This document shows, in pieces, positions 9,438-15,014 of a stretch of DNA of 64,000 nucleotides (position 1 is the stretch's first letter; each line of letters begins with the position of its first letter). The notes beneath the pieces were generated by a model. That model did no database searches. It had not been told where the DNA came from and saw nothing but the letters and a program-made list of their open reading frames with translations. The position numbers and the translations under genes were made by a program. Source of the stretch: Flavobacteriales bacterium. Its GTDB lineage: Bacteria; Bacteroidota; Bacteroidia; Flavobacteriales_E; Vicingaceae. The DNA lies in NCBI GenBank assembly GCA_029262875.1, contig JAJCYO010000125.1, positions 1 to 64,000 on the forward strand, given 5' to 3'.

Positions 9438-9508
9438 GGTTCCGTGGCCGAGCGGCTAGGCAGTGCTCTGCAAAAGCATCTACAGCGGTTCGAATCCGCT
9501 CGGAACCT
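9438..9508 (+). tRNA. tRNA-Cys (GCA)
   Basis: Complete 71-base cloverleaf: acceptor GGTTCCG/CGGAACC, D stem GCC/GGC, anticodon stem GTGCT/AGCAT around the loop CTGCAAA (anticodon GCA), T stem AGCGG/CCGCT with loop TTCGAAT, discriminator T. The CCA end is not encoded. A terminator follows at once. Confidence 0.97.
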
Positions 9509-9515
9509 CAAGAAC

Positions 9516-9547
9516 AAAAGACCAATACGAAAGTATTGGTCTTTTTT
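9516..9547 (+). terminator. Terminator of tRNA-Cys
   Basis: Perfect stem GACCAATAC/GTATTGGTC with a GAAA tetraloop, extended by A-T pairs and followed by six T. It directly follows the tRNA. Confidence 0.9.
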
Positions 9548-9555
9548 ATTTTGCG

Positions 9556-9563
9556 TACTTTTA
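9556..9563 (+). promoter_or_regulatory. Probable -7 box of the restriction endonuclease gene
   Basis: TACTTTTA is a one-mismatch form of TAnnTTTG, 1 base before the first ATG and 4 bases before the second. The 4-base spacing seen at other genes here favours the second ATG (9568). Confidence 0.35.
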
Positions 9564-9564
9564 A

Positions 9565-10194
9565 ATGATGACGTATACTGGAGGAGAATTAAATTTATTA
9601 AATGGAAAGATGGGGATTTCTGATCCAAATAAAAGTGTTCCTGTTATGAAGTTGATAAAAATTCATCAACCAAAGAGTAAGGAGGCTTTGGTTCAACTCA
9701 TTGCCTATCACAAAAATAAAATCTGTAAATGTGGAATTAAAAGTACAGGAACTGTAGAAGATTTTGGACACAACCTTTACAATGCTCAAATGGAATACTG
9801 GAAAGAAAATAAGTATTCATTAAAAGAGTGCATTCAATGGGAGTATGATCTTTTTGTTGTTCAGTCATTAAAAGGAGGAATCATTGAGAAAAAAGCATTG
9901 ACTGTTTTAGAAAAGAAATTGGAACCATTAATTGTTGAGGAAGCAATGGGTTACCTTGATGAAGAACTGCGTATAGATATCGTCATTTATGATGGGCATA
10001 AAAACGAGATTGCTGGGGTTCAAGTAAAGCCCAATACGTTTAATAAAATGAGGAGCGAAGTAAAACACTTCCAAAAAATGGCAAATCAAAAATGGGGGAA
10101 GCCTGTTTATTTCTTATTTTATGATAAGGAAGAAAATTTTATGACCTTGGATGACGTGGTCAATTCCATTAAGAATTTAAATCTTCTTAAATAG
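9565..10194 (+). CDS. Type II restriction endonuclease, probably MjaI-like
   Basis: A 209-residue protein converging on a DNA cytosine methyltransferase, with the 3' ends overlapping by 18 bases. The C-terminal half shows a PD-(D/E)xK-like core: D138 in LRIDIVIYD, then Q153-V-K155 in GVQVKPNTF, so Gln replaces the usual Glu (D...QxK). The N-terminal TGGELNLLN and the GVQVKPNTF segment recall the MjaI restriction endonuclease family (prototype cuts CTAG), but I recognise this from memory only and the specificity is unknown. The frame contains two adjacent start codons (9565 and 9568). It sits just downstream of tRNA-Cys, a common insertion point for transferred modules. Confidence 0.65.
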   Translation: MMTYTGGELNLLNGKMGISDPNKSVPVMKLIKIHQPKSKEALVQLIAYHKNKICKCGIKSTGTVEDFGHNLYNAQMEYWKENKYSLKECIQWEYDLFVVQSLKGGIIEKKALTVLEKKLEPLIVEEAMGYLDEELRIDIVIYDGHKNEIAGVQVKPNTFNKMRSEVKHFQKMANQKWGKPVYFLFYDKEENFMTLDDVVNSIKNLNLLK

Positions 10195-11148
10195 CTCTTT
10201 TATACTTAACGCTAAGTGATAGCCTAAATTAACCGGAACACTATTTCCTACTTGCCTAGATTGTTCCCCTTTACTTCCAACGAAAATGTAATCTTCGGGG
10301 TAGGTTTGTATTAGAGCCATTTCACGTATCGTAATTCTTCTATTCTCTTTTGGGTGGTAGTAATGGTCACAATTATTATGAACAATAGTGTGGCTTGGTT
10401 TTTTAGCATCTAACCTTCTCATCGCTCTTTTGAGGTCGGAATTATTCCAAAGTTCAGGAGGACAATCTTTCATTGAACCGCCTTCTGGAATGTGTTTAAT
10501 TCGTTTGGTGTTTAGCTCAGATAAATTAGAGATGGAGTGATTCTTATCGGTTTTTTTAAACTTTTTATTTAGAATAACATCACCAACGGCAATGGTTTTT
10601 CCATATTTTGAACGAGATTTAACTGGCTTAGGAAACTCGTATTTAAGATTCAAATCATTTCTCACCCCAACCAAAATTACACGATTTCTACTTTGAGGAA
10701 CCCCATAATCTTTTGCGTTTAACACTTGATTGTATAGGGTATACCCTAGGCTCTCAAATTCTTTTTTGATTAACTTAAAGACATTTCCGCCATCTAATGT
10801 AAGGATGCCTTTTACATTTTCTAACAAGAAAACTTTAGGATTGGCTTCAGTTATTATTCTTGCATACTCTTTAAAAAGCATGTTTCGAGGGTCATTGAAA
10901 GCTCTTTTAGGATTAGCGGTTGAAAACCCTTGACAAGGAGGCCCTCCTATGATTAAATCAGCTTTAGGAATATTTTTTAATTTTCTAATGTCTTCATGAA
11001 CAACATGATCTCCAATATTTAACTTATAAGATGCACATGCTTCTTTGTTAAAATCATTGGCTAAAATAACCTTGAACCCCTTAGCTTTGAGAAAGCCTAA
11101 GTCCATTCCGCCACTGCCAGAAAACAAAGAAATTGTTTTAATGTTCAT
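10177..11148 (-). CDS. DNA (cytosine-5-)-methyltransferase
   Basis: The 323-residue protein has all main motifs of C5-cytosine methyltransferases: I, SLFSGSGGMDLGF (SAM binding, residues 7-19); IV, GGPPCQGFS with catalytic C72; VI, LLENVKG (about 108-114); VIII, QSRNRVILVGVR; IX, RRITIREMALIQTYPEDY; X, QVGNSVPVNLG. The target-recognition segment lies at about residues 180-255 and does not reveal the recognition site to me. It protects DNA against the convergent endonuclease. A -7-like box TAACTTTA (11153-11160, minus strand) ends 4 bases before the ATG, the same spacing as for the endonuclease. Confidence 0.95.
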   Translation of the reverse strand: MNIKTISLFSGSGGMDLGFLKAKGFKVILANDFNKEACASYKLNIGDHVVHEDIRKLKNIPKADLIIGGPPCQGFSTANPKRAFNDPRNMLFKEYARIITEANPKVFLLENVKGILTLDGGNVFKLIKKEFESLGYTLYNQVLNAKDYGVPQSRNRVILVGVRNDLNLKYEFPKPVKSRSKYGKTIAVGDVILNKKFKKTDKNHSISNLSELNTKRIKHIPEGGSMKDCPPELWNNSDLKRAMRRLDAKKPSHTIVHNNCDHYYHPKENRRITIREMALIQTYPEDYIFVGSKGEQSRQVGNSVPVNLGYHLALSIKELFKKI

Positions 11149-11195
11149 GTGGTAAAGTTATTAAAAAGAAGAGTAGGTTAAATTGAGAAAACCAA

Positions 11196-11231
11196 TAAAA
11201 AAAGCCTTGTGAATTTTCACAAGGCTTTTTG
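11196..11231 (-). terminator. Terminator of the type B sorting protein gene
   Basis: Perfect 12-bp stem AAGCCTTGTGAA/TTCACAAGGCTT, flanked by A and T runs, 20 bases beyond the stop of the gene at 11251. It is symmetrical enough to work in both directions. Confidence 0.85.
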
Positions 11232-11250
11232 ATATATAAAACGTATTTAT

Positions 11251-13320: not shown

Positions 13321-14811
13321 TTATTTGTTTTCTAAAGCCTCAATTCTTTGTTCAAGTTTTTCGATTATCGCTTGTTGTTCTTTCATAGCTTCTACTAATA
13401 CAGGAATCAACACCGTATAACTTAATGTTTTTACTTTGTATACATTCTGTTCTCTTGACATTCCATTATCCATTGGCCCGTCAGATGAATGTAAATTAGC
13501 TTCCCTAACTATATGTGGGAAAATATCTTCTACTTCCTGTGCAACAAAACCTAATTGCTTTGTTTCAGTATCAAGGTTTACATCTGGATAATTTGTTTTA
13601 TCAAAATTATATTCAACCCCTCTCAGCTGCATTATTTTTGATAGAGAACCATCTAATGTTTTAATGTTCTTTTTTAATCTTTTATCAGAAACATTTTGCC
13701 ATGCCTGTGTCCCTCCGGCCCAACCGTTGGCAAAAATTGCCCAACCTAATCCACCACCAACATATCCTCCTAAGACACCTGTTCCATCTGCACTGTTAGC
13801 AAATCCTTCAACTCCAGCAGCCGTTCCAACACCGTTTATCGCAAGCCCCATTAAGCCGTTTGCAGCTAAGGCAGTTCCACTATAATTCGTTATACCAAAC
13901 CAACCTCTACTACCATTTGCAGCATTTAAACTTTGGGCTCTGGCAATTGCATCTCCAGCATTGTTGAAGTCCCACATGGTGTGAAAGTTACCATTAGCAA
14001 CATTATTGTTATAGTGTATATAAGTCGTTGGTGTAGCTGTTCTAAACCCAATATTTCCATTTGCTTCAATGGTCATTCTTTCAAGGTTACTACTTCTAAA
14101 TTTCACATCAGCACCATTAATAGAACCCATAAAGTTGGCACCTGCAACAGGGTTATTTCCTGTAGTTAACCAAGCAGCAGCCGTAGAAGTAACAGGCCCA
14201 CCTGATCCAGCAGTTCCATTCACAGTCACTGTTCCGTTTGCGTTAAGGGTTGGTGTTGTCAAAGTCCAGCTTGGGCCCATTGGTCCAACAGGTCCTTGTA
14301 TTCCCTGAATTCCTTGAGGTCCGGCAGGTCCAGCTGCTCCAGCAGGTCCGGTTAATCCGATTGGTCCTTGAGGTCCGGCAGGGCCAGCAACCCCAGCAGG
14401 TCCAGCAGGTCCGATTGGCCCAGCAACTCCGGCAGGTCCAGCAGGTCCGATTGGTCCAGCAGCACCAGGAGGTCCAGCGGGTCCAGCGGGTCCAGCAGCA
14501 CCAGGAGGTCCAGCAGGTCCAATAGCTTGTACCCATGCAGCACCATCCCAATACCAATAACCAAGAGCACCACCTATCATGGCAGCATTCGTATTATATA
14601 CTAATAGACTTGTCGCAGGAGCAGGAATTGTAACAACATCAGCTGTTGAAGTTAATGCTACTCGAGGAACTAAAAGTCCTTTGTCAGGATAATCGATATC
14701 GAGAGCGGCTGACGCATTAGGAACAGCACCTGTAGTATTAATACCAACATTTTGCCCAAAAGCAAAAGCCGAAAGTGATACTAGAACTAAAGTTAGAAAT
14801 AGATTTTTCAT
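13321..14811 (-). CDS. Collagen-like surface protein with S74 self-chaperone domain
   Basis: 496 residues in four parts. First a signal peptide (cut after SAFAFGQ) and a short head that includes the Bacteroidota motif [16 protein letters not shown]. Then about 27 uninterrupted Gly-X-Y triplets (about residues 102-184), rich in Pro and Ala, able to form a collagen triple helix. Then a Gly/Asn-rich shaft. Last, a C-terminal peptidase S74 / intramolecular chaperone domain starting at [10 protein letters not shown], where the Ser-Lys pair is the expected autocleavage site, ending in a coiled coil ([17 protein letters not shown]). S74 domains trimerise phage tail spikes and similar fibres, so a trimeric surface fibre released by self-cleavage is a reasonable inference. 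No T9SS sorting domain is seen. Confidence 0.85.
14270..14523 (-). repeat. Collagen-coding repeat DNA
   Basis: About 250 bases of 9-base (Gly-Pro-Ala-like) units such as GGTCCAGCA on the plus strand. The repeat makes several spurious long open frames on both strands and could expand or contract by slippage. Confidence 0.85.
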
Positions 14812-14985: not shown

Positions 14986-15014
14986 AAAATATTTTTTTGT
15001 AAAAATAGGAGGAA

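Follow-up and report, generated by a model that had tools for sequence, protein, structure and literature searches.

The restriction endonuclease MjaI cuts CTAG. Its gene has been cloned, expressed and characterized (PMC4752239). Among the methyltransferases that act on CTAG, M.MthZI is an experimentally characterized 4mC enzyme, and M.BfaI and M.MjaI are M.MthZI homologues that, according to REBASE, were characterized in unpublished work; the members of this group have 303–364 aa and carry SPPY in place of the DPPY motif (PMC5867850).

We analyzed a pair of genes in a stretch of 64,000 nucleotides (hereafter, the window) from the genome of a Flavobacteriales bacterium. As in MjaI-type systems (PF09568; R.MjaI/M.MjaI, CTAG), the endonuclease of this pair scores over the Pfam cut-off and its genome is depleted of CTAG. 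Unlike these systems, the window endonuclease belongs to a divergent subfamily and its partner is a C5-cytosine methyltransferase, whereas M.MjaI is described as a 4mC CTAG enzyme in PMC5867850. Endonucleases with 54–67% identity to that of the window occur in the same convergent order in Gelidibacter (L125–L127), Bacteroidales (L128 and L130) and Methanobrevibacter (L135); however, their methyltransferases are of the N6_N4_Mtase type and that of the window is of the DNA_methylase type. Judging from their sequences, the two genes most likely form a working Type II restriction-modification pair. We consider it probable that this two-gene system combines a CTAG endonuclease with a phage-related C5 enzyme that protects CTAG and has replaced the N4 guardian.

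Gene anatomy of the locus

The endonuclease gene (209 aa; positions 9565–10194, + strand), a predicted CTAG cutter identified from its open reading frame, Pfam, homologues, alignment and a structural model, faces the gene of the C5-cytosine DNA methyltransferase (323 aa; 10177–11148, – strand), the predicted protector of the endonuclease's site, identified from its open reading frame, Pfam and solved relatives. The 3' ends of both genes overlap by 18 bases (10177–10194). On the left, the insert that carries the pair adjoins a tRNA-Cys (GCA) gene (9438–9509, + strand; ARAGORN), which is kept in congeners. A terminator-like hairpin 3' of the tRNA gene (9516–9545, + strand) ends 19 bases ahead of the endonuclease start codon, and a second one lies past the insert (11199–11230, – strand). 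An earlier reading made from the letters alone (the sequence-only reading) had described a convergent endonuclease and C5 methyltransferase with an 18-base 3' overlap, next to tRNA-Cys, and these positions agree with it. Because the endonuclease has both a Pfam match and homologues, and the C5 enzyme both a Pfam match and a match to M.HaeIII, a chance reading frame can be excluded for both genes on sequence grounds.

The endonuclease belongs to a divergent RE_MjaI subfamily

Against Pfam RE_MjaI (PF09568), the 209-aa protein scored 24.6 bits (E = 2.6e-5), a narrow margin over the cut-off of 22.7. It had no match in the genome_contigs collection when used as a single query, nor any in the viral_contigs, plasmids or phages collections. 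Among GTDB genome records we found 16 homologues with 44–67% identity, mostly from Bacteroidota but also from Methanobrevibacter, Aliifodinibius and KSB1, and 12 of the 16 subfamily rows matched RE_MjaI at 1e-3. RE_MjaI as a whole was found in 63 of the 395 phylum genomes searched. We then compared the subfamily profile with RE_MjaI subgroups built from hand-chosen rows (11 for subgroup 1, 18 for subgroup 2 and 2 for subgroup 3; partial and other rows were omitted, and L030, L035 and L044, whose flanks are cut by contig ends, were left out of the family alignment). The profile matched subgroup 2 with a probability of 98.5 (E = 3e-15, 190 columns) and the third subgroup with a probability of 97.2 (E = 4e-11); in direct comparison it matched subgroup 1, whose members score best in Pfam, weakly (probability 0.25, E = 0.24). 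With a Pfam score above the cut-off, subfamily rows that match RE_MjaI and a profile related to subgroups 2 and 3, the earlier assignment of an MjaI-like endonuclease stands, and the 209-residue protein does have a family match.

The D...(Q/S)xKP core of the RE_MjaI family is present in the window endonuclease as D138, Q153, K155 and P156. These residues, together with E108 and D132, are invariant in all 16 rows of the subfamily alignment, which consists of the window and 15 of the 16 loci (L138, with its homologue split between two frames, was omitted). From the alignment and the predicted placement of strands, D138 (codon at 9976–9978, + strand) is a predicted metal ligand of a PD-(D/E)xK-type core, in which Q153-V154-K155 (10021–10029, + strand) would form the QxK element; the codon of the invariant E108 is at 9886–9888 (+ strand). 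The D...QxK core named by the sequence-only reading is thus invariant in 16 of 16 rows, but its view that a Gln at the usual Glu position is rare was not supported. In the family alignment, Q occupies this position in both the window's subfamily and subgroup 2 (QIKP), and S prevails in subgroup 1 (SIKP). QxK is thus ordinary within the family: QxK, or mostly SxK in one subgroup, is the family rule.

In the AlphaFold model of the endonuclease (mean pLDDT 89.6), QxK lies on a strand and D138 starts the preceding strand. A Foldseek comparison of this model with solved structures gave no match at E ≤ 0.001. The best VIA-align Z scores were obtained with VRR_NUC (8.4), BsaWI (8.2) and Hjc-like (8.1) chains, all of which we take to be of the PD-(D/E)xK fold class, and these matches span 87–105 residues of the C-terminal half at 3.0–3.8 Å. 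The model-based matches are compatible with the PD-(D/E)xK class for the endonuclease, without proving it.

The C5 methyltransferase and its phage-borne relatives

The 323-aa protein matched Pfam DNA_methylase (PF00145) with 279 bits, and the C5 motifs FSGSGG, GGPPCQGFS, ENV, QSRNR and QVGNSVP are all intact, in keeping with the earlier identification as a C5-cytosine methyltransferase. The catalytic motif GGPPCQGFS, presumably motif IV, is encoded at 10921–10947 (– strand). Among solved structures, the closest relative over the full length was M.HaeIII (E = 1.1e-51), the representative of a C5 type that acts on GGCC. However, the target-recognition region of the window enzyme (residues 209–270; 10339–10524, – strand; boundaries set by eye from the alignment) is not conserved with M.HaeIII, and GGCC is not depleted in the window genome; nor did we find a match of this region to a characterized enzyme.

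The nearest relative of the C5 enzyme, with 65% identity, is on two IMG/VR phage contigs (L141 and L142/L209), one of which carries only the second half of the gene. The identity is highest in the target-recognition region (54/62, 87%), compared with 108/174 in the N-terminal part and 10/34 just before the region, which makes a common target of both enzymes probable. Unlike the window gene, the phage-contig gene adjoins genes matching baseplate-wedge families, and no endonuclease is seen beside it in the sequence of the two contigs. On the longer contig, CTAG occurs 17 times versus 33.5 expected, which is not below GATC (13/34.6) or CATG (16/40.9).

Other relatives are more distant. At E = 1e-60, a search of 395 class and 296 phylum genomes returned, besides the window, only G421 (44% identity). 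This match covers one half of a protein of 736 aa (L062:2485–4695), which has two PPCQ motifs, apparently consists of two C5 methyltransferase domains and is encoded next to a large P-loop-containing gene. The C5 matches in plasmid (118) and phage (17) records were all less than 60% identical, and the 8 plasmid C5 neighborhoods examined, out of 20 listed, contained no endonuclease annotated as MjaI-family.

The C5 gene takes the place of the usual partner

We surveyed the partners in 57 RE_MjaI stretches (L016–L056 and L125–L140) using tblastn with reference proteins; L054 and L137 represent the same place, and many stretches are cut by the 1.5-kb flanks or by contig ends. Most of the 57 stretches carry one of two SPPY amino-methyltransferase types, and the C5 methyltransferase from the window had no relative in any of them at E = 1e-4. 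In seven stretches (L041, L052, L053, L131, L132, L134 and L140) we saw none of the methyltransferase types sought, and L047 has only a methyltransferase fragment. Among the 16 subfamily loci, 11 have one SPPY amino-methyltransferase type (N6_N4_Mtase; assigned by Pfam for L125 and by tblastn for the others). This gene is immediately convergent with the endonuclease gene in nine loci, and the 3' ends overlap in five convergent loci of the subfamily (L125, L126, L127, L129 and L139); it is on the same strand as the endonuclease in L136, and one gene intervenes in L137. Because subfamily partners are mostly convergent SPPY methyltransferases, the window's C5 gene sits, as judged from gene order, where the usual partner would be and points the same way. 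These counts (0/57 and 11/16) also support the suspicion of the sequence-only reading that a C5 enzyme is an unusual partner here.

Two of the loci, L130 (4405–6728) and L135 (4358–6737), contain a subgroup-1 endonuclease and a window-subfamily endonuclease in tandem with a single methyltransferase. This arrangement suggests a single mark as the protection from both endonucleases, and a target common to the two. In Capnocytophaga felis (L138:3724–6313), a frame-broken copy of the endonuclease separates the two genes, methyltransferase and endonuclease, of an MjaI-type system of subgroup 2 and looks as though inserted into it.

No SPPY (PF01555-type) methyltransferase lies beside the window endonuclease, the neighbor of which matches PF00145. 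We also searched the window genome for other guardians of three methyltransferase families (PF00145, PF01555 and PF02086). PF00145 matched this C5 enzyme only, and PF02086 had no match. PF01555 had one match over the cut-off (on contig C115) and one below it, which we read as an RNA-methyltransferase-like frame. The C115 enzyme was rejected as a hidden partner: its neighbor is an endonuclease VII-like gene, and it shares 22% identity with the methyltransferase that usually accompanies the subfamily.

The pair is an insert next to tRNA-Cys

In blastn comparisons, tRNA-Cys was present in 12 of the 13 congener stretches, all except that of G009. Five of the 13 (G001, G002, G003, G008 and G013) have an empty site, at which sequence matching window positions 11194–11247 onward comes directly after tRNA-Cys; at the empty site of G002, a hairpin nearly identical to the one right of the pair in the window is the first feature past tRNA-Cys. 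Sequence matching window position 15013 onward is found within about 140 bases of tRNA-Cys in G004 and G006, and after 1.2 kb in G005; there was no match right of tRNA-Cys in G007, G010, G011 and G012. Because five congeners show the empty site, the pair is, on this sequence comparison, an insert of about 1.65 kb with two genes only, located approximately at 9548–11193 (each edge ± some 40–50 bases). Acquisition beside a tRNA gene had been put forward earlier together with the lack of an att repeat; the empty sites favor the former, and we likewise found no att-like direct repeat joining the insert ends, on which ground att-site integration was rejected.

The stretch after tRNA-Cys (window position 9510 onward) differs among congeners, and therefore the region right of this gene may be a variable spot. 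An open reading frame at 13321–14811 contains a collagen-like Gly-Pro-rich repeat, and its C-terminal part presumably resembles a phage tail-fiber autochaperone.

The locus might also be taken for two unrelated neighbors, namely an MjaI-type endonuclease that has lost its N4 partner and is either degenerate or protected in another way, and a phage-related C5 enzyme that stands alone and has a target of its own. Such an association would be in line with the four of 16 homologues (L131, L132, L134 and L140) whose stretches showed none of the methyltransferase types sought, and with the two phage contigs, on which the nearest C5 relatives have no adjacent endonuclease in the available sequence. 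However, both genes are intact, the C5 gene is positioned and oriented like the usual partner and overlaps the endonuclease gene at the 3' end, the insert contains these two genes only, and the CTAG loss described below is specific to the window genome within the genus as sampled. We therefore regard unrelated neighbors as unlikely.

CTAG is specifically depleted in the window genome

We computed expected word counts with a maximum-order Markov model. In the 342 kb of the window genome, 115 CTAG sites were observed against 674 expected (0.17), the ratio being 0.26 in the window and 0.15 outside. RE_MjaI was found in none of the 13 congeners. Ten of them, with like GC content, showed ratios of 0.53–0.78 (nine values): G002 0.68, G005 0.64, G006 0.68, G012 0.58, G010 0.67, G011 0.75, G008 0.53, G003 0.58 and G001 pooled with G013 0.78, the last four entries in this list resting on 6.5–9.6 kb each. 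G004 and G009, measured over no more than 2–3 kb, are not among these ten. For G007, the ratio was 0.26 in four contigs (GC 0.44) and 0.72 in C28, the contig with its tRNA-Cys locus; the four CTAG-poor contigs may not belong to G007. Ratios in members of the same family were 0.64 (G016), 0.60 (G018) and 0.76 (G020).

Across a broader set of genomes, the pooled ratio was 0.15 (59/403) for 11 further carriers of RE_MjaI and 0.63 (970/1530) for 17 genomes without it, with GC content differing between the two groups; G183 (1,001 bases) was unused, G260 gave no stretch, and G079 and G429 carry a partial RE_MjaI domain. Exceptions ran in both directions: ratios were low in G119 (0.19), G152 (0.11) and G059 (0.25), all without RE_MjaI, and higher in G431 (0.48) and G669 (0.44), which carry it. 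The 16 subfamily loci pooled to 0.37 (88/238), ranging from 0 to 1.10 (L135).

Among nine palindromic 4-mers compared with four congeners, CTAG alone was far under the congener level; CATG and GATC were low as well, but equally so in the congeners. We further counted how many congener sites are kept in the window genome, using aligned orthologous bases and sites present in at least one of 10 congeners (these positions are not independent). The fractions were 10/140 for CTAG, 88/189 for CATG, 41/124 for GATC, 35/165 for GTAC, 54/362 for AGCT and 19/128 for TCGA. When at least two congeners agreed, they were 2/13 for CTAG (a small sample), 31/54 for CATG, 14/27 for GATC, 10/28 for GTAC and 15/62 for AGCT. 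Conversely, 19 of the 57 congener words aligned to CTAG sites of the window genome are also CTAG.

Of 84 single-base CTAG losses, 33 were C>T or G>A and 32 were T>A or A>T; the corresponding numbers for GTAC (n = 73) were 25 and 27. There is no clear C-to-T excess among the CTAG losses (33/84 versus 25/73 for GTAC), and thus no sign of 5-methylcytosine there. Because the spectrum of substitutions is mixed, the loss looks like the result of selection against the site and not of deamination, and it is neutral on the kind of methylation; m5C hypermutation as its cause was rejected for the same reason. GGCC, considered as a shared target from the likeness to M.HaeIII, was rejected as well, since its ratio of 0.93 shows no depletion and the recognition region differs. 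The sequence-only reading had held that a C5 partner might imply a target other than CTAG; with CTAG the specifically depleted palindrome and GGCC not depleted, this is not favored.

In one form of that idea, the genes are a true restriction-modification pair in which the endonuclease has drifted to another target that it shares with the C5 enzyme, and the scarcity of CTAG stems from an older, lost system. The CTAG loss could indeed date from an earlier system in the lineage. In addition, the subfamily has diverged (the score against RE_MjaI is 24.6 bits, and the direct match to the best-scoring subgroup is weak), the C5 partner differs in class from the partners in other loci, and its recognition region is unlike that of M.HaeIII. 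We nevertheless consider a drifted target quite unlikely, because CTAG alone, among the nine palindromes, falls far under the level of the four congeners, and because close homologues (44–67% identity) mostly retain the usual partner. Scarcity of CTAG for reasons other than restriction (general counter-selection or 5mC deamination), which overlaps with a drifted target and with unrelated neighbors and is exclusive of neither, is suggested by the several CTAG-poor genomes without RE_MjaI, but it is quite improbable given the ten congeners of like GC content at 0.53–0.78 and the many kinds of change, not mainly C-to-T, by which sites were lost.

A proposed exchange of the guardian methyltransferase

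For the reading of a CTAG system with an exchanged guardian, we infer the following mechanism. The 209-aa PD-(D/E)xK-type nuclease, with its D138/Q153xK155 core, most likely cuts unmethylated CTAG, and the convergent C5 enzyme most likely methylates the cytosine of CTAG, by which the host would be protected. The C5 gene is the candidate guardian because an active endonuclease requires protection of the remaining CTAG sites, and this gene is the sole adjacent candidate. The C5 enzyme would have taken over from an N4 enzyme, and would derive from a phage methyltransferase or have a common ancestor with one. A CTAG endonuclease whose guardian was exchanged is the simplest reading of the locus. 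Within the subfamily, 10 of the 15 inner branches of the endonuclease tree are open, and we therefore rely on parsimony for the direction in which the partner changed.

We propose more tentatively, and with slightly more doubt than confidence, that the system retained its CTAG endonuclease and took up as its new guardian an anti-restriction C5 methyltransferase carried by phage, with the protective 4mC giving way to 5mC on one and the same cytosine. Such a phage enzyme would be CTAG-specific and would serve against the widespread MjaI-family endonucleases. In our searches of open-licence papers, no title or abstract opening described a C5 enzyme at CTAG or a partner exchange of this kind. If the exchange is true, the methyl mark and the enzyme class that guard a restriction site can be replaced with the endonuclease and the site unchanged, and a phage-related methyltransferase is indicated as the source of the new guardian. 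The reading predicts a C5 methyltransferase for CTAG, and the pair offers a testable case of restriction systems surviving a change of partner.

CGNCG avoidance in the same genome

A second word, CGNCG, is absent from the window (22.7 ± 4.1 in shuffles) and from the 342 kb of the window genome (0 observed, 95 expected), in which CG pairs spaced by 0 and by 2–8 bases do occur. It is also absent from G098 (0/221), G059 (0/40), G016 (0/24) and G006 (0/14), and low in G002 (2/14), G005 (3/23) and G012 (3/19); the other 21 genomes measured have at least 0.6 of the expected number. This avoidance is strong and unrelated to RE_MjaI.

On contig C115 of the window genome (C115:39004–40258; L063:5005–6259), an N6_N4 methyltransferase gene overlaps an endonuclease VII/His-Me finger gene, a pair that we take to resemble the Hpy99I class (CGWCG). 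Endonuclease_7 was found in three of 20 genomes. The endonuclease VII-like gene was rejected as the sole cause of the absence of CGNCG, given that five avoiders have no Endonuclease_7. However, the three carriers are all among the eight genomes that lack or avoid CGNCG, with none among the 12 others, and therefore the endonuclease VII-type gene on C115 may explain part of the CGNCG loss.
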